From Clostridiales bacterium (lineage in GTDB: Bacteria; Bacillota; Clostridia; Lachnospirales; WRAX01): a stretch of DNA of 42,422 nucleotides. The notes under the pieces were generated by a model, which was not told the DNA's origin, searched no databases, and saw only the letters and a program-made list of their open reading frames with translations. Numbering within the stretch: the stretch's first letter is position 1; each line of letters starts with the position of its first letter. The position numbers were made by a program, and so were the translations under genes. The DNA lies in contig JAISCI010000113.1 of the NCBI GenBank assembly GCA_031265685.1, positions 1 through 42,422 on the forward strand, given 5' to 3'. Shown here piece after piece: positions 7,742-42,422 of this stretch.

Positions 7742-7827
7742 CTAATTTCATTTAGATTTGCGGATAAAAATTTTTCAAGATAGACACGGACTGAAAAATT
7801 TTTATCCGTCTCTTAAAATGGAATTAG
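7742..7827. mobile_element. MITE-like palindromic element, family B copy 1
   Basis: An 86-bp near-palindrome. Outer arms CTAATTTCATTTAGA (7742-7756) and TCTTAAAATGGAATTAG (7811-7827) pair imperfectly; inner arms CGGATAAAAATTTTTCA (7761-7777) and TGAAAAATTTTTATCCG (7792-7808) pair perfectly around a 14-nt loop. The outer ends and the AAAATTTTTCAAG core recur at 39845-40055. It has no coding capacity and fills the gap between xylB and the ECF gene, whose stop codon touches its right end. It might also act as a terminator. Confidence 0.7.
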
Positions 7828-8466: not shown

Positions 8467-8491
8467 ATTTTCGCGTGACCCGTGCGAAAAT
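8467..8491. repeat. REP-like hairpin, variant loop
   Basis: ATTTTCGC, loop GTGACCCGT, GCGAAAAT; flanking GTA and AC extend the pairing. The stem is nearly identical to that at 32473 and 30075, but the loop differs. It sits in the divergent gap between the ECF gene and neuB, overlapping alternative upstream starts of neuB. Confidence 0.55.
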
Positions 8492-8505
8492 ACATGGTGA
8501 TGATT

Positions 8506-9366
8506 ATGAAAATTCTGCTTTGCGCCGAGATCGGCTGCAACCACCAGGGCAGCGTCAGCCTCGCGATGTCGATGATACGCGCGGCGGCGGCCAGCGGCGC
8601 CGATATAGTCAAGTTTCAGAAGCGCAGCCCGCGCGAGCTGCTCTCGCCGACCGCGTTCAACGCCCCGCATCCCGTACCCGAAAACGCCTTCGGCGACAGC
8701 TACGGCGCTCACCGCGAACATCTGGAACTGAGCGGCGAGGACCATCAGTGGCTCGCCCTGCATTGCGCCGCGAACGGCGTCGCCTACTCGTCCTCCGTCT
8801 GGGACATAACGTCCGCGAAAGAGATAGCCACGTTCGCCCCCGCCATGATCAAGGTGCCGTCGGCCTCCAATACCGACGACGCGATGCTGGGCTGGCTGGC
8901 GGCAAACTTCGGCGGAGAGCTGCACATATCGCTCGGCATGACGTCGCCCGAGGAAGAATCCCGTATTATCGAGATTCTGTCACGGGCGAACCGCCTGTCC
9001 GACACCGTGCTGTACGCGTGCGTTTCGGGCTATCCCGTAAGCGCCGGAGACGCGTGCCTGCTCGAGATAACGCGGCTGCGGTGGCTCTACGGCGGCTCGG
9101 TCAAGATGATCGGCTATTCAGGCCATCACCTCGGCATCGCGCTGGATCCGGCGGCGGCGGCGCTCGGCGCGGGTATTATCGAACGGCATTTCACTCTCGA
9201 CAAGGAGATGAAGGGAACCGACCACTCCGCGTCGCTGACTCCATCCGAATTCGCGGCGCTGCGCGAGGCCGTAGACGACACGGCGGCGGCGCTCCAGCCC
9301 AAGCCGCTCCTGCCGCTGGCGGTCGAGCGGGAGACGCGCCGCAAGCTTAAGAACCTGTGTTCATAG
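8506..9366 (+). CDS. N-acetylneuraminate synthase family protein (NeuB-like), lacking the SAF domain
   Basis: The 286-residue protein is the TIM-barrel part of the NeuB/SpsE family, which condenses phosphoenolpyruvate with a hexosamine-type sugar to make a nine-carbon acid such as sialic, legionaminic or Kdn-type sugars. Visible motifs are AEIGCNHQGSVSLA, DIVKFQKR, IKVPSASN, a GMTS strand, CVSGYP, and GYSGHHLGIALDPAAAALGA with IIERHFTLDKEMKGTDHSAS. Family members usually have about 340 residues with a C-terminal antifreeze-like SAF domain; it is absent here. The last codons and stop are read from the left end of the MITE-like element at 9350. I favour the ATG at 8506 (GGTGA 6 nt upstream) over the GTG at 8482. 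A partner cytidylyltransferase is encoded 10 kb away at 19166. Confidence 0.85.
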   Translation: MKILLCAEIGCNHQGSVSLAMSMIRAAAASGADIVKFQKRSPRELLSPTAFNAPHPVPENAFGDSYGAHREHLELSGEDHQWLALHCAANGVAYSSSVWDITSAKEIATFAPAMIKVPSASNTDDAMLGWLAANFGGELHISLGMTSPEEESRIIEILSRANRLSDTVLYACVSGYPVSAGDACLLEITRLRWLYGGSVKMIGYSGHHLGIALDPAAAALGAGIIERHFTLDKEMKGTDHSASLTPSEFAALREAVDDTAAALQPKPLLPLAVERETRRKLKNLCS

Positions 9367-9494
9367 ATGGAATCGACGTCTTTTCAGCTGATTTCCCGTC
9401 GTTGATCGACGTTTGATGTTGTCTTATTCCGCTTCCTCGCCCGGCGGAAAATCATCGCGAAAATCCGCCGATTCCACTAATGAATACAGGTTCT
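9350..9494. mobile_element. MITE-like element, family A copy 1
   Basis: The 145-bp element has terminal inverted repeats: AGAACCTGTGTTCAT at the left and ATGAATACAGGTTCT at the right (14 of 15 pair), continuing inward to GGAATCG/CGATTCC. A second copy begins at 42123. It encodes nothing. Its left end overlaps neuB and provides the TAG stop; its right end lies 5 bp from the stop codon of the convergent HAD gene. No clear target-site duplication is visible. Confidence 0.8.
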
Positions 9495-9499
9495 AAATC

Positions 9500-10337: not shown

Positions 10338-10343
10338 GGTGAC

Positions 10344-10491
10344 GTTCGCGGGGGCGTGGCGATTGCGGCTTCTGCTGTTTCAGCTAATTTGAGACAGTAT
10401 CAGCCAAAAATCGCTTCTGAGATGTACCCTTACAACCTGATCCGGGTAATACCGGCGGAGGGAAGCGAGTAAAACACACGCATTGTTTTAC
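10344..10491 (+). promoter_or_regulatory. TPP riboswitch (THI element) with expression platform
   Basis: The aptamer (about 10346-10468) has the conserved CTGAGA, ACCCTTACAACCTGATC, GGGTAATACC and GGCGGAGGGAA segments. A short P1 (TCGC with GCGA) closes it, and a long P3 arm (GCGATT with AATCGC) carries an extra hairpin. It is followed by an 8-bp hairpin, GTAAAACA against TGTTTTAC (10469-10491), without a U run. A second short stem (CCAAAA/TTTTGG) adjoins the thiT ribosome binding site. Control of translation therefore seems more likely than termination. When TPP is bound, thiT expression should fall. Confidence 0.95.
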
Positions 10492-10527
10492 CGCGTCCCG
10501 CCAAAAATTCTTTTGGAGGGATTTTTT

Positions 10528-11160
10528 ATGTCCGAGTTCTTCGGGTCGCCCATCGGCCAGCTTACGGCGGTGGGCGCGGCGGTCGTTCTCTTTCTGGCGG
10601 CCGTCGGAACCGCGACGCGGTTCGGCAGGTCCGGCGTCCGAATCACCACTGTCACGGCGGTATGCCTGGCGATGGCGACGGCGCTGTCGTTCGTCAAGCC
10701 GTTCGAGCTGTACAACGGCGGCTCGGTAACGCTGCTCAGCATGTTTTTCGTAACGGTCGTCGGATATTTCTTCGGCCTTGGTCCGGGGCTTCTGGCCGGA
10801 GCAACGTATTCGTTCATTCAGCTGGCGGTTGATCCGGTCGTCGTCAGCCCTGTTCAAGCGGCTCTTGACTACCTGTTCGGGTTTGGCCTGCTGGGCGTCT
10901 CCGGCGCGTTCGCTGGAACGAGAGGCGGGCTGTACATCGGGTACATAGCCGGCGTGACCGGGCGCTTTATCGCGACGCTTCTCTCCGGCGTATTGTTCTG
11001 GAGCGCGTACGCGCCTGAGGGCATGAACGTATGGCTCTATTCGGCGCTCTACAACGGCGGTTACATATTCGCCGAGGCCGCGATTACGCTTGTGATAATC
11101 TCGCTGCCGCCTGTTCGGGGAGCCGTCTCCCGTCTTCGGGACCGGTTCGCGCGCGCGTAA
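10528..11160 (+). CDS. thiT: Thiamine ECF transporter S component ThiT
   Basis: The 210-residue membrane protein captures thiamine for an ECF transporter. The family signature is clear: ELYNGGSVTLLSMFF, a LDYLFGFGLLGVSG helix, and the thiamine-binding GVLFWSAYAPEGMNVWLYSALYNGGY segment near the C-terminus. There are six predicted hydrophobic helices. The ATG at 10528 is preceded by GGAGGG at 7-nt spacing, so the upstream in-frame TTG is not used. It is alone behind the TPP riboswitch. The ATPases and T component must be encoded elsewhere. The N-terminus is somewhat longer than in typical ThiT proteins of 180-200 residues. Confidence 0.95.
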   Translation: MSEFFGSPIGQLTAVGAAVVLFLAAVGTATRFGRSGVRITTVTAVCLAMATALSFVKPFELYNGGSVTLLSMFFVTVVGYFFGLGPGLLAGATYSFIQLAVDPVVVSPVQAALDYLFGFGLLGVSGAFAGTRGGLYIGYIAGVTGRFIATLLSGVLFWSAYAPEGMNVWLYSALYNGGYIFAEAAITLVIISLPPVRGAVSRLRDRFARA

Positions 11161-17903: not shown

Positions 17904-18718
17904 TGTTCGACCATTCGTATGTGAGGGCCGGCGAGACGGCGGTTGATCTCGGGCGCGGCGGGTACATGCTGATCCAGCCGAAGCGCGGCTATAAATTCGG
18001 GACGGACGCGGTACTTCTGGCGGCGTTCGCGGCGGGTATCGGCGAGCGTCGCTGTTTGGATTTGTGCGCGGGCAGCGGCGTCGTTTCGTTACTCATGCTT
18101 GGCCGCCGCAATCTTGCGGCCTCAGGCAAGATTGCCCTCGCGGCTTCAGGCGAAATTGCTATCGCGGCCTCAGGCAAGATTGCTGACGCTGATTTCGTCG
18201 GGATAGAGCTTCAGCGGGATTACGCTGATATGGCCGAGCGGTCGTTCGCGGCGAACGGGCTTAACGGACGAGCGCGGATCATACCGGGAGACGTCCGTGA
18301 CATTCGGGCGCTGACGCCTGCCGCGTCGTTCGACGTCGTTACCGCAAATCCGCCGTATATCCCGGCGAACGGCGGATTGCCCGGCGCGGACGCTTCGGTG
18401 GATATTTGCCGGCGCGAAACGGCTTGCACTCTGGCGGATGTCGCGCGGGCCGCCAAGTACGCGCTGCGCCCCGGCGGGTCGTTCGTTTGCGTCCATAGGC
18501 CGAAACGGCTCGGCGACATATTTGAGGTGTTCGGCGGGCAATCGCTCGGGATAACGTCGCTGCGGTTTGTACACCCGAAGGCTGACCGCGCGCCGACCGC
18601 TCTGCTGGTTCACGCGCGGCGCGGCATGAGGCCCGAGCTTAACGTACTGCCGCCGCTCATCCTGCGGGACGCGGACGGCGGGTATACACGGGAGGCGCGA
18701 TCAATTTACAATGACTGA
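17903..18718 (+). CDS. tRNA1(Val) N6-adenine methyltransferase-like (YabB/TrmN6)
   Basis: The 271-residue SAM-dependent methyltransferase has the QPKRGYKFGTDAVLLAAFA N-terminal signature, motif I LDLCAGSGVVSLLM, and the N6-adenine motif NPPYIP in TANPPYIPANGG. This is the yabB gene usually found after yaaT; E. coli TrmN6 methylates A37 of tRNA-Val. The oddity is a 24-residue insertion between motif I and the next strand, made of three near-identical 8-residue repeats (AASGKIAL, AASGEIAI, AASGKIAD). They are encoded by the 24-bp repeats at 18116-18187, and the insertion keeps the frame. The insertion falls in a loop, so activity may survive. It overlaps gtrA by 8 bp. Confidence 0.9.
   Translation: MFDHSYVRAGETAVDLGRGGYMLIQPKRGYKFGTDAVLLAAFAAGIGERRCLDLCAGSGVVSLLMLGRRNLAASGKIALAASGEIAIAASGKIADADFVGIELQRDYADMAERSFAANGLNGRARIIPGDVRDIRALTPAASFDVVTANPPYIPANGGLPGADASVDICRRETACTLADVARAAKYALRPGGSFVCVHRPKRLGDIFEVFGGQSLGITSLRFVHPKADRAPTALLVHARRGMRPELNVLPPLILRDADGGYTREARSIYND
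18108..18187. repeat. Tandem in-frame 24-bp repeats inside trmN6, related to REP-like hairpins
   Basis: Three 24-bp units (18116, 18140, 18164) differ at a few positions. GCAATCTTGC (18108-18117) and GCAAGATTGC (18126-18135) form a 10-bp stem around GGCCTCAG. On the minus strand the middle unit reads AATTTCGC, CTGAAGCC, GCGA, close to the hairpin AATTTTCGC, TTGAATCC, GCGAAAATT at 32473. The array thus looks like hairpin elements captured in a coding sequence. Confidence 0.7.
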
Positions 18719-21115: not shown

Positions 21116-21163
21116 CGTCAGGGACTCAAAAGCGGTTTGATGTTATCTAAGACGACAGATAGA

Positions 21164-21297
21164 GGAAAACAGACGCGATTGCACAGATACAGAGACATAT
21201 CTCCAGACGAAGTCTTAATATAACATATATTATCCGCTAAAGCCATGGACATTTCAATGATTTCATGTATTGAAGCGGCGAAAAGATGTAATTTACG
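21164..21297. repeat. Dispersed intergenic repeat, family C copy 1
   Basis: About 134 bp, beginning GGAAAACAGACGCGATTGC and ending with CATGTATTGAAGCGGCG and GATGTAATTTACG. The 3' part matches 24715-24775 over more than 50 bp with few differences. TTTCAATGATTTCATG is identical in both, and TTCAAT/ATTGAA pair. No protein is recognised. Just before it, 21134-21153 resembles the internal GTTTGATGTTGTCTTAGAC of MITE family A. Confidence 0.7.
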
Positions 21298-24453: not shown

Positions 24454-24994
24454 GATTTTAACGCTCCTTGTTTTTGTCGGTGCTGGACAGATTATAGCAC
24501 AAGGCGGGCGAGAGCGCCAGCGTTTTTAAGATTAAACCACGTTTGTTTTACAAATTACCGGCGGCATCCAAGATAATAGGCGATCCGCGGAAGCGCGGAC
24601 GCGTCAAATACCGGCTAAGGACATGGAAATTTCAATAAATGGAAAACGGATGCACTTGCTCGGGCACGGCGCGTTTGTTCAATGAGGAAAAGCATTATAA
24701 CATGCGTTGATCGCTAAATCCATGTATATTTCAATGATTTCATGTACTGAAGGGGCGGAAAAGATATAATTTACGTTCACCTCGCCCGCATCCGCCTCAC
24801 TCTGCCCGGGAACGCGGCGGAGTGATAAGCGGAAAACGGATACACTTGCGCGGACACAGAGACATCTGTTCAGGGAAGGGCTGACATTGCGGCATATGTA
24901 TTTATCAACCGGAAAAAGCCCTCATCCCTGAAAGGAAAAACAGCCGAAAACATTACGCGACAAAGCCGGATACAGAAAATGCGCGGGCTTGGCG
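24454..24994. repeat. Intergenic region with dispersed repeat family C (one full and two partial copies)
   Basis: No gene is seen in these 541 bp. A full copy of repeat C lies at 24641-24775 (GGAAAACGGATGCACTTGC to ATATAATTTACG). A 5' partial copy begins at 24831 (GGAAAACGGATACACTTGC) and fades near 24903; its ACAGAGACATCTGTTCAG matches copy 1 at 21188 better than the full copy does. A 3' fragment is at 24614-24640 (GGACATGGAAATTTCAAT). The pyrG -10 TATAAT lies at its left edge, around 24493-24498. Confidence 0.7.
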
Positions 24995-36565: not shown

Positions 36566-36784
36566 ATGTCCGCAAGACGAACGACGAGGATCCGTAAGCT
36601 TAAGGACAAAGCCGTGGCCAAGCTGGACGAGATGCTCGACAGCGGGAACGACTCCATCGTGCTTAAGTCCGTGGCCGCTATCCTGGAACTGCCCGAGGAG
36701 GGCGATGGGGATGGCGCGATCGGGGCGCTGGCGGCGCTGCTGACGGGTCCCGCCGGGAAACGAGAGGGCGAGCCGCTTGAATAA
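36566..36784 (+). CDS. Small protein before TerL, probable terminase small subunit-like
   Basis: The 72-residue basic-to-acidic helical protein (MSARRTTRIRKLKDKAVAKL, then IVLKSVAAILELPEE) sits where the terminase small subunit is expected and overlaps the TerL start by 8 bp. It is shorter than usual TerS proteins (about 120-200 residues), and no clear helix-turn-helix is seen. AGGGGGTGG precedes the ATG at 36566. The assignment is positional. The 166 bp before it hold no gene; 36517-36540 has a TTTCTGATTTCTGTTTTCTGG run similar to 22813-22840. Confidence 0.5.
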   Translation: MSARRTTRIRKLKDKAVAKLDEMLDSGNDSIVLKSVAAILELPEEGDGDGAIGALAALLTGPAGKREGEPLE

Positions 36785-38123
36785 TTACGCCCCGTTTTCG
36801 GCGAAGCAGCTTCAGTATCTGAGAAAGTCCGGCGTAAGCTGGCTCAACGTCGCCGAGGGCGGCAAACGCGCCGGAAAGAACATCGTAAATATCGTCGCTT
36901 TCGCTATGGCGCTGGCGAATCATCCCGACACGCTGCACCTTGCGGCGGGGGTTACGCTGGCGGCGGCAAAAATGAACGTAATCGATTCCAACGGCTTGGG
37001 GCTTCTCAATATCTTCGGCGGAGGCTGCCGCGAGGGCCGGTATCAGGGCAAGGAAGCGCTTATCGTTAATACAGGGAGTGGAAAGAAGGTCGTCGTTATC
37101 GCGGGCGGAGGGTTATCAAACGACGCCGCGCGGATAAAGGGCAACTCGTATGGCATGGCCTACATTACCGAGGTCAACGAGTGCCACGAGGACTTCTTTC
37201 GGGAGACACTGGACCGGACACTGGCAAGCCGCGACCGACGGCTTTTTTTCGACCTGAACCCGAAGCCGCCGGGCCACTGGTTCTATCGGGAGTTTCTGGA
37301 TTTTCAGCAAAACCGGTATGACGAGGGCAAAAATCCGGGATTCAATTACGGGCATTTCACGATCTGGGACAATATGAGCCTGTCGGACGAGCGGCTGCGA
37401 GACGCGCTGTCCGTGTATGATCCCGCGGGGTTATGGTATCAGGCGGATATACTCGGCAGGCGCGTCGCGGCGGCGGGGCGGATATACACCTCCTTCGGGC
37501 GGGAGAGCGTCCTGCCCGAAGGGGAGCTGTTCGCCGGGGAATACGAGCGATTCTCAATCGGGATAGACGTGGGCGGTACGGACGCCACGGCGGCCACGCT
37601 GGTCGGGTTTGACCGGGGGTATCGCCGCGTGTCGGTTATCGACGGGTTCTATCACAAACAGGGGGGCGGCGCCGGCATGACCGACGACGCCTACGCCGCG
37701 ATGATCACGGAGAAGATCGCCCTCTGGATTGAGGCGTTCCCGAACCTTCCGGCGCGGTGCGGCGTATTCTGCGAGTCGGCGGACAAGCTGTTCCGGCAGG
37801 CGCTGGCGAACAGGCTGCGCCGCGAGGGGATCGGGCTTACGGTGTACCCGTCGTATAAAAACGACGGGATAATATACCGCATCCGTCTCATCAACATGCT
37901 GATAAGCCAGGGGCGGTTCCGGATCTCGGATCGGATGGGCAAGTGGATTGAGGCTCTGACAAACGCGGGCTGGAGCGAGAAAGAGAGGGCGAACGGCGAT
38001 TGGCGGAGGGTAGACGACGGGAGTTATCCCGTGGACTGCCTGGACAGCCTGGAATACGCCGTTACGCCGCACAAAGCCGGCATTTTGAGCGAGGGGAAAT
38101 GGAGAAATGACAAACGTTCTTGA
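36777..38123 (+). CDS. Phage terminase large subunit
   Basis: The 448-residue packaging motor has an ATPase domain with Walker A EGGKRAGKN (Asn replaces the usual Ser/Thr, a variant I recall from Firmicutes PBSX-type terminases), Walker B-like MAYITEVNECHEDFF, and FDLNPKPPGHWFYREF. The C-terminal nuclease domain begins with FSIGIDVGGTDATAATLVGF, the metal-binding Asp motif, and ends near SYPVDCLDSLEYAVTP. The start is TTG 36777, with GAGAGGG upstream. The intact length indicates that it is not degraded. It overlaps the next gene by 17 bp. Confidence 0.92.
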   Translation: MNNYAPFSAKQLQYLRKSGVSWLNVAEGGKRAGKNIVNIVAFAMALANHPDTLHLAAGVTLAAAKMNVIDSNGLGLLNIFGGGCREGRYQGKEALIVNTGSGKKVVVIAGGGLSNDAARIKGNSYGMAYITEVNECHEDFFRETLDRTLASRDRRLFFDLNPKPPGHWFYREFLDFQQNRYDEGKNPGFNYGHFTIWDNMSLSDERLRDALSVYDPAGLWYQADILGRRVAAAGRIYTSFGRESVLPEGELFAGEYERFSIGIDVGGTDATAATLVGFDRGYRRVSVIDGFYHKQGGGAGMTDDAYAAMITEKIALWIEAFPNLPARCGVFCESADKLFRQALANRLRREGIGLTVYPSYKNDGIIYRIRLINMLISQGRFRISDRMGKWIEALTNAGWSEKERANGDWRRVDDGSYPVDCLDSLEYAVTPHKAGILSEGKWRNDKRS

Positions 38124-38439
38124 AAGGACGGCGGAGACGGCCGCCGTGGTTACGCTGGAGCTTTACGACGAGCGGGCGCGGCGCGGGGCGGCGGTTCCCG
38201 GGGGAGACGGGCTGCTGATCAGGCTGCGCTCCAGCGGATGGCCGTTTGAGATACCCGCGGGCGCGGCGGCGGAACTGACGTATGAAGACGGGCGGACCGT
38301 GCCGCTCGCCGTCGCGAACCGCAGGGCCGGCGAGCTGCTGGCGCCGGGGGACGTCCCGACGGGCAAGGTTACGGCGGCGGTGCGCTACGGTCAGTTCCGG
38401 CTCGACTGGCAGCCGTTCGTTATAGCGGAGGGCGCTTAG
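38107..38439 (+). CDS. Small phage protein of unknown function between TerL and portal
   Basis: The 110-residue protein (starts MTNVLERTAETAAVVTLEL) seems beta-rich, without membrane segments. It overlaps terL by 17 bp and is followed 3 bp later by the portal gene. I do not recognise a family. The tight packing argues that it is a real gene. Confidence 0.65.
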   Translation: MTNVLERTAETAAVVTLELYDERARRGAAVPGGDGLLIRLRSSGWPFEIPAGAAAELTYEDGRTVPLAVANRRAGELLAPGDVPTGKVTAAVRYGQFRLDWQPFVIAEGA

Positions 38440-38442
38440 ACT

Positions 38443-39861
38443 ATGGGCTGGTTTTTGGACAAGATAAGGGGACTGGCCGGCATCGGCGGCGCGGCGGAGG
38501 AATACGTCTCGATTCAGCCGGCGCGCGGGTTCGAGACGGCGGCGCTAGAGAAGACCGTCTGGTACCGCGGTCAGCCGGGCGAACTGGCGCAGTTCTATTC
38601 CCAGACGGACGACTGGGCGGGGAACACGTCGTTCTGGGCGGCGAGCGCGCGGAGCGGATCGAAAGTGCGCCGGATACACTCGGGGCTGCCGGCGCTGATC
38701 GCGGATACGCTGGCGGGGATCGCCGCCAGTGACTTCCTGGGCGTCACGGTCGACAGGGCGCAGGACATATGGGACGAGATAGCGCGGGAGAACAACTTCG
38801 CCGGGCTGATCAAAAAGGCCGCGCGCGCGGCGCTTGTCGTCGGCGACGGGGCTTTCAAGCTCAGTTATGACGGCGCGGTAAGCCGTTTCCCGATCATCGA
38901 GTTTTTCGGCGGGGACCGGACGCGGTATGAGTATTCGCGCGGAAGGCTCGAGAGCGTCGTGTTCACCACGGAGTATGAACGCGGCGGCAAGCGCTGGCGC
39001 CTGCACGAGCGGTACCGCCGGGGCGGAGTCGATTACCGGCTGGCCGACGAGAGCGGGCGCGAGGTTCCGCTGTCGTCGCTGGAGGAGACGGCGTCCCTGC
39101 GTCCGGTCGTCAACGAGGAAGGTTTCATGATGGCTTTCCCGCTGATATTTGACGAGAGCGCGGCTTACCCCGGGCGCGGGAAGAGCGTTTACGAGGGCAA
39201 GCTCGGGGCGTTCGACGCGCTTGACGAGACGCTTTCGCAATGGGTGGACGCGCTGCGGGACGGGCGCGTGGTCACGTATATTCCCAGCAATATGCTGCCG
39301 AGGGACCCCGCGACGGGAGAGGCGCTCCGTCCGGACGGGTTCAGCCGCAGGTACGCCGAGACGGACGCGGACCTGTCCGAGGGCGGGGGGCATATAACCG
39401 TCGCCCAGCCGGAGATAAAGACGGACGCGCTGTTCTCGACCTACGCCAACTTTCTCGACATCGCGCTGACGGGCGTCATCGCCCCGGCCACGCTGGGGAT
39501 AGACGTAAAGAAACTCGACAACGCCGAGGCGCAGCGGGAGAAGGAGAAGGCGACGCTGTACACGCGCGGCAGGATCGTTTCGGCGCTTTCGGCCGTCCTG
39601 CCGGAGGTGGCCGACGCGGCTCTGCGGATGTATTCCGCGATAAACGGCGCGGACGAGCGCGGGCGGTTCGCGGCGGCGGCGCGGTTTGGGGAGTATCAGA
39701 ACCCAAGCTTTGAGGCGCAGATCGAGGCCGTCGGCAAGGCGGTCTCCGGCGGGATAATGTCGGTGCGGACGGCCGTGTCCGAACTGTACGGCTCGACATG
39801 GACGGCGGAGATGAAAGAAGAGGAGATCGCAAGGCTGGAATCTGATACTAATCTCCGTTAG
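38443..39861 (+). CDS. Phage portal protein (SPP1 Gp6-like)
   Basis: The 472-residue protein has the portal pattern: an N-terminal SQTDDWAGNTSFWAAS region, LPALIADTLAGIAASDFLGV, AARAALVVGDGAFKLSYD in the wing/stem, FALDETLSQWVDALRDGR-type long helix near 260, and IAPATLGIDVKKLDNAEAQREKEKATLYTR close to residue 350, which is highly typical of Firmicutes portals. It forms the dodecameric ring at the packaging vertex. The last six codons and TAG stop come from the left end of the MITE-like element at 39845. The protein ends at about the usual place. Confidence 0.9.
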   Translation: MGWFLDKIRGLAGIGGAAEEYVSIQPARGFETAALEKTVWYRGQPGELAQFYSQTDDWAGNTSFWAASARSGSKVRRIHSGLPALIADTLAGIAASDFLGVTVDRAQDIWDEIARENNFAGLIKKAARAALVVGDGAFKLSYDGAVSRFPIIEFFGGDRTRYEYSRGRLESVVFTTEYERGGKRWRLHERYRRGGVDYRLADESGREVPLSSLEETASLRPVVNEEGFMMAFPLIFDESAAYPGRGKSVYEGKLGAFDALDETLSQWVDALRDGRVVTYIPSNMLPRDPATGEALRPDGFSRRYAETDADLSEGGGHITVAQPEIKTDALFSTYANFLDIALTGVIAPATLGIDVKKLDNAEAQREKEKATLYTRGRIVSALSAVLPEVADAALRMYSAINGADERGRFAAAARFGEYQNPSFEAQIEAVGKAVSGGIMSVRTAVSELYGSTWTAEMKEEEIARLESDTNLR

Positions 39862-40055
39862 ACTGGCGGAAAAGATTTTTCAAAGCGTAAGCGCGTCCGC
39901 GTAATGAATTTTAGCATGGTTTGCGGCGCTATCGCTTGGCCGAAGTTTGCTTGAACCACGCAAACTTCTGTCGCGCGATAATGCGATGCGAAAATTACCT
40001 TGATTCAGGCGCGGACTTGAAAAATATTTTCTATTCCTTAAATGGAGATTAGTAT
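39845..40055. mobile_element. MITE-like element, family B copy 2, inside the phage head module
   Basis: The 211-bp element has ends ATACTAATCTCCGTTAG (left) and CTTAAATGGAGATTAGTAT (right), inverted copies of each other with few mismatches. Pairing continues inward through GATTTTTCAAAGCG and CGGACTTGAAAAATATTTTC. Its centre contains a REP-like hairpin (39942-39968) and CGATAATGCGATGC, the reverse complement of 42232-42245. It has no gene. It lies between portal and scaffold-like genes. Confidence 0.75.
39942..39968. repeat. REP-like hairpin, loop TTGAACCAC
   Basis: GAAGTTTGC, TTGAACCAC, GCAAACTTC. Compared with 70-96, two stem positions changed on both sides so that pairing is preserved, while the loop differs by one base. 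Confidence 0.75.
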
Positions 40056-40095
40056 AGCGGATCCGGCGGGACGATGAGGAAAGAGGAGAGATAGA

Positions 40096-40440
40096 ATGGA
40101 CGAGGATTACGCGGTCCGGACGGAGGAATTGGGCGCGAAAGCGGAGCGGCTGGCGAGGCTGCTCGCGGAGGAGCGCGTCAGAAGCGCGCTGCTTTCGGCG
40201 GGGGTTGATCCCCGGAAAGCGGAGCGCGCGGCGCGGCTTATCGACGCCGGCGCGCTGCCCGAGGACGAGGCGGAGCTTAAAGAGGCGCTGGCCCGGGAAG
40301 TGACGAAACTGCTCGAGGATTTTCCGGAGCTGCTGAAAGCGGGAGCGGAGCCAAGGAAAGGCGGCTTCAAGATCGGATCGGACGGGAAAGGCAAGGAGCC
40401 GAGCGAGGATCTTATTATGTCCCTGTTCGGCAATAAATAG
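40096..40440 (+). CDS. Phage scaffold-like protein
   Basis: The 114-residue, highly charged, helical protein (KAERLARLLAEERVRSALL, then DEAELKEALAREVTKLLEDF) with a basic, Gly-rich C-terminus lies just before the capsid gene, where scaffolding proteins are found. GGAAAGAGGAGAG precedes the ATG. The family is not recognised; the call is by composition and position. Confidence 0.6.
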   Translation: MDEDYAVRTEELGAKAERLARLLAEERVRSALLSAGVDPRKAERAARLIDAGALPEDEAELKEALAREVTKLLEDFPELLKAGAEPRKGGFKIGSDGKGKEPSEDLIMSLFGNK

Positions 40441-40455
40441 CGGGGAGGACGCCGT

Positions 40456-41334
40456 ATGGCAAACCAGATCAACTATGTGCATGTTTTTGACAACGCTCTT
40501 CGCCAGAAATATTCGCGCGAGCTGTGCACCGCGCCGCTGACGACGGAGAACGTGACATTTACCGGGGCGCAACAGATAAGCGTGCCTTACATGACGCTGT
40601 CGGGGTACCGCGATCACAACCGCCAGGGCGGGTTTAACCGGGCTTCGGCGTCTACGGGCAGCCAGTACATGAGCCTTTACTTCGACCGCGACGTGGAATT
40701 TTTTGTCGATAGCATGGACGTGGACGAAAGCAATCAGATCATCGCGGCGACCAATCTGACGAACGTGTTTGAGAGCGAGTACGCGATACCCGAGGTGGAC
40801 GCGTTCCGTATCAGCCAGCTCATCCAGCAGATGGAGAGCTTCGACCGCGCGCACGATTCGACGGAGCTGTCGGTAGACAACGTGCTGGAGGTCTACGACG
40901 ATTACATGGAGCGGATGGACGACGCGGAGGTCCCGCAGGAAGGGCGCTTGCTGTTCATTACGCCGCAGGTCAACAACATGCTGAAGCGGGCGGTGGAGAT
41001 AAACCACGCGCTGATCTACACCGACCCGTCGCAAGCGGTGAACCGCGTCATCCGGCATCTGGACGACGTACAGGTTATCGTTGTGCCGAGCAACCGCATG
41101 AAATCGAACTATTCGTTCACGAACGGCTTCAGCCCCGCGGCCAACGCCATCCAGATCAACATGATCCTCGTCCATCCGAAGAGCGTCATCGCGGTCAACA
41201 AGCACAGCTATATCAAGCTGTGGCCGCCGGGAACGCATACCCAGGGCGACGGCTACCTCTACCAGAACAGGCAGTACAGCGGGCTGTTCCTTATAGAAAA
41301 GCGGCTGAACGGGCTTCGGATTAACGCGGGCTGA
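40456..41334 (+). CDS. Phage major capsid protein (HK97-fold type)
   Basis: The 292-residue protein begins MANQINYVHVFDNALRQKYS and contains VPYMTLSGYRDHNRQGG, QYMSLYFDRDVEFFVDSMDVDE, GRLLFITPQVNNMLK, and a C-terminal MILVHPKSVIAVNKHSYIKLW. This arrangement is characteristic of capsids in Firmicutes siphophages that I take to be HK97-fold. There is no fused protease or scaffold domain, consistent with a separate scaffold. GGGGAGGACG lies before the ATG. Confidence 0.88.
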   Translation: MANQINYVHVFDNALRQKYSRELCTAPLTTENVTFTGAQQISVPYMTLSGYRDHNRQGGFNRASASTGSQYMSLYFDRDVEFFVDSMDVDESNQIIAATNLTNVFESEYAIPEVDAFRISQLIQQMESFDRAHDSTELSVDNVLEVYDDYMERMDDAEVPQEGRLLFITPQVNNMLKRAVEINHALIYTDPSQAVNRVIRHLDDVQVIVVPSNRMKSNYSFTNGFSPAANAIQINMILVHPKSVIAVNKHSYIKLWPPGTHTQGDGYLYQNRQYSGLFLIEKRLNGLRINAG

Positions 41335-41352
41335 AAGCGGAGCCGGAAAGAG

Positions 41353-41383
41353 GGGCCGCCGGAAGCTAATCCTACGGCGGCCC
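41353..41383. terminator. GC-rich hairpin after the capsid gene
   Basis: GGGCCGCCG (41353-41361) and CGGCGGCCC (41375-41383) pair perfectly around 13 nt, between capsid and connector genes. With no U run it may only attenuate read-through or stabilise the capsid message. Confidence 0.5.
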
Positions 41384-41399
41384 GGAAGGGGGAATCGGG

Positions 41400-41747
41400 T
41401 TGGCGTCATACGCTGACGTGAGATATTACCGCGCGAAATTCGGGTGCGCCTTCGGCGGGGACGACAAGAAGCTGAAGCGCGCTCTGGAACTGGCGAGCGC
41501 GTGGATCGACCGGGTTACGCTGGGGAGGGCGCGCGCGCGGCTTACGGAGTTTCAAACGAGCCGCGTCCGGGACGCCTGCTGCCGGCAGGCGGATTGGCTG
41601 GATGAGAACGGCGCGGACGGCGAGAGTATATCGGGCTATTCGCTGGGCGACCTGAGCGTGAGCCTGGCGAAGGGCGGGCGCGGCGGTTTCTCCCGGGCGG
41701 CCTGGGTACTGCTCGAGGGCGCCGGGCTGCTGACCGGGGAGGTGTAG
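41400..41747 (+). CDS. Phage head-tail connector protein (gp6/gp15-like adaptor)
   Basis: The 115-residue helical protein (ASYADVRYYRAKFG, LKRALELASAWIDRVTLGR, RVRDACCRQADWLDENG) and its GYSLGDLSVSL stretch resemble head-tail adaptors placed after the capsid gene. The start is TTG 41400, with GGGGGAA upstream. It is followed by another small gene 2 bp later. Confidence 0.72.
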   Translation: MASYADVRYYRAKFGCAFGGDDKKLKRALELASAWIDRVTLGRARARLTEFQTSRVRDACCRQADWLDENGADGESISGYSLGDLSVSLAKGGRGGFSRAAWVLLEGAGLLTGEV

Positions 41748-41749
41748 CC

Positions 41750-42106
41750 TTGCCGAAGAAGAAACTGGCCTTTCCGCGTTTTCTGACGCGGGTACCCTGC
41801 CGCGCGGTCATAGCGGAGGGCGGCCCGGATATGGACGGCGCGGAGACGGGCGGCGCGGTCTACGAGGGTCGCTGCGTACTCAGCGAGAAGACGGTTCGCG
41901 TCGTTACGGACGGCGCGGTATTCTCGGACGCCCGCGGGCGCGTCTATATCGACGGCGACGCGGCGCCCGGTCTCGCGAAGCCGAGCCGGGGTTCGGTCGT
42001 CGTATGGCCTGGCGGGGCGAACGAGACGCGTTACTCCGTGATCCGGGCGGACAGGCCGAGAAACCCGGACGGCAGCGTCAACCATACTATACTGTATCTG
42101 CTGTAG
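41750..42106 (+). CDS. Phage head closure/connector-like protein
   Basis: The 118-residue protein (starts MPKKKLAFPRFLTRVPCRA) has a beta-rich make-up with VYEGRCVLSEKTVRVV and GDAAPGLAKPSRGSVVVWPGG, as in head-closure proteins that follow the first connector. The start TTG 41750 has GGGGAGGTG upstream. The family call is positional. After it the head module stops at a MITE-like element; no tail gene is visible to the window end. Confidence 0.6.
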   Translation: MPKKKLAFPRFLTRVPCRAVIAEGGPDMDGAETGGAVYEGRCVLSEKTVRVVTDGAVFSDARGRVYIDGDAAPGLAKPSRGSVVVWPGGANETRYSVIRADRPRNPDGSVNHTILYLL

Positions 42107-42122
42107 CGCTAATCCCGTTCTA

Positions 42123-42422
42123 AGAACCTGTGTTCATAGATGGAATCGACGTCTTTTCGGCTGATTTCCCGTCGTTGACCGACGTTTGATGTTGTCTTAG
42201 ACAGCATCTGAATTTTGCTTGAACGAATTTTGCATCGCATTATCGTTTGAACCACACGATAATGCCTCGAACCACGCGAAATTCCATCACGCAAAATTCA
42301 TCAAGCCATCTTCTTCATCGTCAGCCAAAAACTTGCGTACTCTCTGAGTACGCGGCGTTTTCCGCTTCCTCGCCCGGCGGAAAATCATCGCGGAAATCCG
42401 CCGATTCCACTAATGAATACAG
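42123..42422. mobile_element. MITE-like element, family A copy 2 (longer form, cut by window end)
   Basis: The left 78 bp match 9350-9427 almost exactly (AGAACCTGTGTTCATAGATG onward), and the right 64 bp match 9427-9490 (TTCCGCTTCCTCGCCCGGCG, to CACTAATGAATACAG). Between them about 159 bp (42201-42358) are absent from copy 1. This internal part holds nested REP-like hairpins and a GCGTACTC/GAGTACGC hairpin (42335-42353). The final GTTCT of the right end lies beyond the window. No gene is seen from 42107 on. Confidence 0.8.
42213..42285. repeat. Nested REP-like hairpins within MITE A copy 2
   Basis: GCATTATCGT, TTGAACCAC, ACGATAATGC (42237-42265) is a perfect 10-bp-stem copy. It is flanked by GAATTTTGCTTGAAC (left) and CGAACCACGCGAAATTC (right), which look like the two halves of a further copy split in its loop. 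CACGCAAAATTCATCAAGC follows, as at the window start. Confidence 0.65.

Follow-up and report, generated by a model that had tools for sequence, protein, structure and literature searches.

A MITE with IS5-type ends in a Clostridiales genome and its foldback core across the order

A short repeat in the genome of a Clostridiales bacterium is very probably a non-autonomous transposable element, a MITE, served in trans by an IS5-family transposase and built on a foldback core whose ends have changed. It occurs twice in the window, the 42,422-nt stretch of DNA analyzed here, which is contig C36 of a 2.2-Mb assembly (130 contigs, 91% complete). Copy 1 is 143 bp long (9351–9493), has TAA on both flanks, and carries 14-bp ends in near-perfect inverted match (GAACCTGTRTTCAT). 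Sites resembling these ends lie at 9350–9364 (+), 9480–9494 (-), and 42123–42137; four matches were observed in the window against a mean of 0.59 in dinucleotide shuffles, and none of 100 shuffles had four or more. The inverted-repeat ends described in a first-pass annotation are thus real, with the outer A/T of its 15-mers belonging to the target duplication, outside the element proper. The annotation had also called the element non-coding, and we found no conserved open reading frame in it, for a transposase or otherwise. The second copy that it placed at 42123 starts at 42124 and is indeed nearly identical in two common blocks (93% and 98% identity), its extra interior being 160 bp and not 159 bp; its last bases are missing because the contig stops there. 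The features of the two copies are as follows.

9348–9350, no strand: left target-site duplication TAA, copy 1
9351–9364, + strand: left terminal inverted repeat GAACCTGTGTTCAT
9351–9493, - strand (strand of the core model): MITE copy 1, 143 bp, derived by deletion from the 303-bp form
9404–9426, + strand: remnant left half of nested palindrome D (GATCGACGTTTGATGTTGTCTTA), with the deletion junction at 9426/9427
9433–9453, - strand: conserved core motif GATTTTCCGCCGGGCGAGGAA, copy 1
9480–9493, - strand: right terminal inverted repeat GAACCTGTATTCAT
9494–9496, no strand: right target-site duplication TAA, copy 1
42121–42123, no strand: left target-site trinucleotide TAA, copy 2
42124–42422, - strand: MITE copy 2, 303-bp form minus its last 4 bases
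42177–42208, + strand: left part of nested palindrome D, copy 2
42209–42300, + strand: nested repeat E (TGAATTTTGC...GCAAAATTCA) within D, copy 2
42301–42315, + strand: right part of nested palindrome D, copy 2
42366–42386, - strand: conserved core motif, copy 2

Copy 1 lies between convergent genes and overlaps the 3' terminus of a neuB-like open reading frame (8482–9366), to which it supplies the stop codon and last residues (KSHST-stop to KNLCS-stop); apart from this C-terminal change the insertion looks near neutral. Copy 2 sits just downstream from a phage-type region (36777–42106; terminase large subunit match at 36777–38123). Elsewhere in the window are a TPP riboswitch aptamer above the Rfam cut-off (10340–10481, +), upstream of a + strand open reading frame (10483–11160); a 66-bp repeat pair, 82% alike (21219–21284 and 24696–24761); and three 31-nt repeats at 24-base spacing within an open reading frame (18116–18194).

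The repeat is dispersed throughout the genome. BLAST returned 71 matching stretches, and the end pattern was found at 54 sites, compared with one for a reversed control pattern. We extracted at least 22 complete copies, with about eight more broken by contig ends, or about 30 in total, at unrelated loci; neither of the outcomes that would have spoken against a MITE (only two, locally duplicated copies, or ends not shared among copies) occurred. The 3-bp flanks were identical in 20 of the 22 complete copies, all of the form TNA (TAA, TTA, or TCA on the element strand), for which the probability at 1/64 each is ∼1e-34; the other two had no matching duplication. An empty site was available within another repeat of the same genome, repeat B, the other genomes compared being different species. 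Seven uninterrupted repeat B copies read CAAGGAACTAAAA(G/A)TAGA (also given as GGAACTAAAA(G/A)TAGA), and the copy on C110 is interrupted, with GGAACTAA before the element, TAAAAGTAG after it, and the element between TAA duplications. Some copies are close neighbors (C34, C46, C4), as they might be had the repeats been dispersed by recombination and not by transposition; the exact ends, the TNA duplications, and the empty site leave that account next to no probability, the duplications refuting it. Several contigs, this window among them, terminate inside a copy, and the elements disrupt assemblies.

In keeping with a MITE, the copies are below 500 bp (63–326 bp), non-coding, numerous, and dispersed, with common terminal inverted repeats and a target duplication of fixed length, and autonomous-type elements with the same ends exist: decayed in this genome, complete in others. 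The decayed one is a 750-bp IS5-family relic (C19:5687–6436) with a broken transposase, the target duplication TCA, and the ends GAACTTGTATTCAG and GAATCCGTATTCAA. Related IS5 elements in other genomes (e.g., Streptococcus and Ruminococcaceae) are about 800–845 bp long, end in GAACCTGTATTCA, and make TNA duplications; the transposase of one family relative scored 127.7 bits against the NF033580 IS5 cut-off of 110. The assembly, at its 91% completeness and 130 contigs, yielded no intact transposase with these ends; present activity is thus putative, and mobilization in trans is what we infer. Matches to PF01609 and PF13340 in this genome, at C14, C66, C75, and C88, did not have these ends.

The resemblance to the IS5 family (NF033580, about 800–845 bp) consists of the terminal 13 bp and the 3-bp TNA duplication; the element here differs in having no transposase gene and an unrelated interior. 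It therefore has the ends and target of an IS5-family member without the encoded transposase. The first-pass annotation had proposed internal deletion from a longer autonomous parent, which would make the repeat a Type I MITE derived from an IS5 element that shares its ends. The IS5 relic in the same genome, with which the repeat has ∼13-bp ends and the TNA target in common, fits that origin, but no subterminal homology to an IS5 parent extends beyond the terminal repeats: a covariance model of the core, run against 45 loci with related IS5 elements from other bacteria, found nothing convincing (one weak 34-bp match), and the interior is also conserved in elements whose ends differ. We consider descent from an autonomous IS5 parent improbable and disfavor it. 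The idea of internal deletion holds at a smaller scale, for copy 1 only, as a deletion of the 303-bp form.

The forms measure about 63, 75, 135, 143, 163, 239, and 303 bp. The 163-bp form is a foldback over its full length, and the 303-bp form consists of this ∼163-bp core with the ∼45-bp palindrome D at one fixed place and the ∼92-bp repeat E inside D. D stands alone at C46, C80, C83, and C106, and with E at C53. Since D is both nested in the long form and present alone, a fragment at 21134 that had been likened to the interior of the element is real but resembles half of D and is no further copy. The 303-bp form occurs at several loci, each with its own TNA duplication, so the composite itself was amplified. 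The left part of copy 1 stops inside D, and copy 1 therefore descends from the long form; the ancestral form is the ∼163-bp foldback. Among the 163-bp copies, those at C55, C75, and C82 look like the uninserted ancestor; some others still carry GATCG or GACCG at the junction and seem to have arisen later, by deletion between short repeats. Repeat E has dozens of copies in the genome. In the window its units (GAATTTTGC / GCAAAATTC) occur at 78–129, 39950–39986, and 42209–42302; one copy lies within the C19 relic and a similar repeat within another IS5-type remnant at C88. Two contigs, C107 (locus L095) and C53 (locus L104), end identically after repeat E, a probable assembly fork; a composite of repeat B and the present element on C107 shares that contig end, so this side may be misassembled, and we left it out of the evidence.

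The core folds strongly: the window copy has a z-score of -6.6, and most values among the remaining copies and the relatives fall between -4 and -18. In relatives it is 160–165 bp long, with about 60–71 end-to-end pairs and a differing interior sequence; it comprises a stem in which GATTTTTCGCC pairs with GGCGGAAAATC, an asymmetric loop (AATCAAGGA/GACGAAGAG), and an apical hairpin. In an alignment of 24 cores from six genomes, 84% of cells in a 66-pair hairpin were paired, and 43 of the 66 pairs had changes on both sides. The covariation score was 0.374; shuffled controls gave 0.170 and slid controls no more than 0.126. Taking the structure from the same sequences works somewhat in its favor, and what matters is the size of the gap. 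The covarying arms could be due partly to palindrome correction in replication rather than to selection.

Our best guess is that the element owes some of its persistence and spread to the hairpin structure as such, with RNA-level action on neighboring genes as the main alternative role. In its full form that alternative would make the repeat a transcribed structured RNA or mRNA 3'-end hairpin (an RNase III substrate, a terminator, or a small RNA) that is selected by the host and only secondarily mobile. The compensatory changes and constant length across diverged genomes, the conserved asymmetric internal loop, and the place of copy 1 between convergent genes would all suit such an RNA. Rfam, however, yielded no family at cut-off and only weak, sub-cut-off microRNA matches, a terminator scan of the window copy gave no convincing signal, and DNA-level signs of mobility accompany nearly every locus; we regard a host-selected RNA as unlikely, and a mobile element as the better reading.

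The core extends well beyond this genome. Elements ending in TNAGAACCTGTRTTCA were found at 218, 39, and 22 sites in three other genomes of the order (control, 0), mostly with TNA duplications. The covariance model, which scored copy 1 at 111.7 bits on the - strand and 66.6 on the + strand, had matches in 54 of 295 genomes of the order, from at least nine families; nearly all of the listed matches were full length (155–170 bp), the model favoring full-length matches near 163 bp. Matches were weaker in a phylum-wide sample (six of about 390 other genomes). One distant genome of the phylum (G410) has a 146-bp weak match (L369) with TGTTCAAAAAGGCCATCG ends and a CAAGGCGCGAAGG motif, which may hint at a wider group. 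A pattern of the left 35 bases had no match in genome contigs; a similar pattern and the core motif had none in viral contigs, and BLASTN of two relatives against plasmids and phages returned nothing.

Among relatives, the core carries many types of ends, including GAACCTGTRTTCA, GAAGCTGTATTCAAC, GAAGGTGTGTTCATAG, GAACCTGCGGTCAATAA, GAGCCTGTTCAAGATCT, GGGCGTGTTGCCACTA, and GGTAGTGTCTGCGTAAG, several of which have IS5 counterparts (GAAGCTGTGTTCATAG in G007, GAACCAGCGGTCAATAA in G010, and GAAACCGTTCAGAATCT in G053). In the core, the blocks around GATTTTTCGCCAATCAAGGA and GTGGCGGAAAATCGACCG held about 1.04 bits per position across 24 genomes outside the model, compared with 0.4 at end positions 9–16, model-based selection inflating all values. 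The outermost eight end positions (1.17 bits in the same genomes) are as conserved as the core, and the contrast is therefore confined to positions 9–16 and to a minority of elements with quite different ends. The same genome has two or three end-types on the common core. Repeat B (160 bp, ends GGGCGTGTTTGAAAAC, often with TA duplications) was absent from the model, yet scored up to 108 bits (E = 1e-30) on one strand and at most 47 on the other; given this strand difference, the core has a direction and is more than a generic palindrome. A third end-type on the core (AGACSTGTC...) is found at C55:5927–6089. A separate foldback in the window (7742–7827; CTAATTTCATTT...AAATGGAATTAG, 36-bp arms) has ends similar to sequences that adjoin several repeat B copies.

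In our reading, the hairpin core has been conserved while the ends by which transposases recognize the element have changed. How the differences arose is the one point on which two accounts diverge. Under the first, to which we give a little less than an even chance, this is one old MITE family whose ends drifted along with its IS5 partners, with no exchange between unrelated elements; many end-types are single-step variants of one another (GAACCTGT, GAAGCTGT, GAAGGTGT, GAGCCTGT), and IS5 ends vary in like manner. Very different ends on one core in a single genome (GAACCTGTATTCAT with TNA, GGGCGTGTTTGAAAAC with TA) argue against drift alone. The second account, which we put forward tentatively, is that the ∼160-bp foldback core is a module conserved in its own right, which has time and again taken over the ends of different transposases and so outlasts any single insertion sequence.

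Under the proposed mechanism, an IS5-family DDE transposase of the NF033580 type would bind GAACCTGTRTTCA at both ends in trans, cut out or copy the element, and join it to TNA targets. In this genome the ∼163-bp foldback core would have gained palindrome D carrying repeat E, and the 303-bp composite would have been amplified as a unit; later deletions would have produced the forms of 63, 75, 135, 143 (copy 1), and 239 bp, along with some secondary ones of 163 bp. Throughout the order this foldback core occurs with several other ends, so these would have evolved or been exchanged to suit different transposases while the hairpin core was retained.

Several known systems bear comparison. The Chunjie MITE of Geobacter uraniireducens (178–235 bp, about 38 copies) is likewise a size-variable family with terminal and direct repeats; it was reported for one species, and we set it beside the present element by description only (PMC10969869). 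Correia elements from Neisseria, whose transcripts are cut by RNase III, and ERIC from enterobacteria are also short repeats with many copies, again compared by description only, and differ in their reported hosts (PMC10969869). TIMEs, miniature elements derived from Tn3, share the non-autonomous state and the ability to form composite structures, but have Tn3-type ends where the element here has IS5-type ends (PMC4133298). We found no description of the hairpin group in the open literature, subscription journals being outside the scope of the search; as far as that search could see, a long-lived foldback core with varying ends is new, and a MITE is a known kind of element.

Bacterial MITEs are usually described species by species and regarded as dead remains of a single parent. 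A covarying hairpin of fixed length, common to several families of an order yet bearing different transposase ends, would point to some MITEs being long-lived lineages that switch their mobilizing enzyme. The covariance model makes such elements findable, and this genome, with several end-types on a single core, permits direct comparison.
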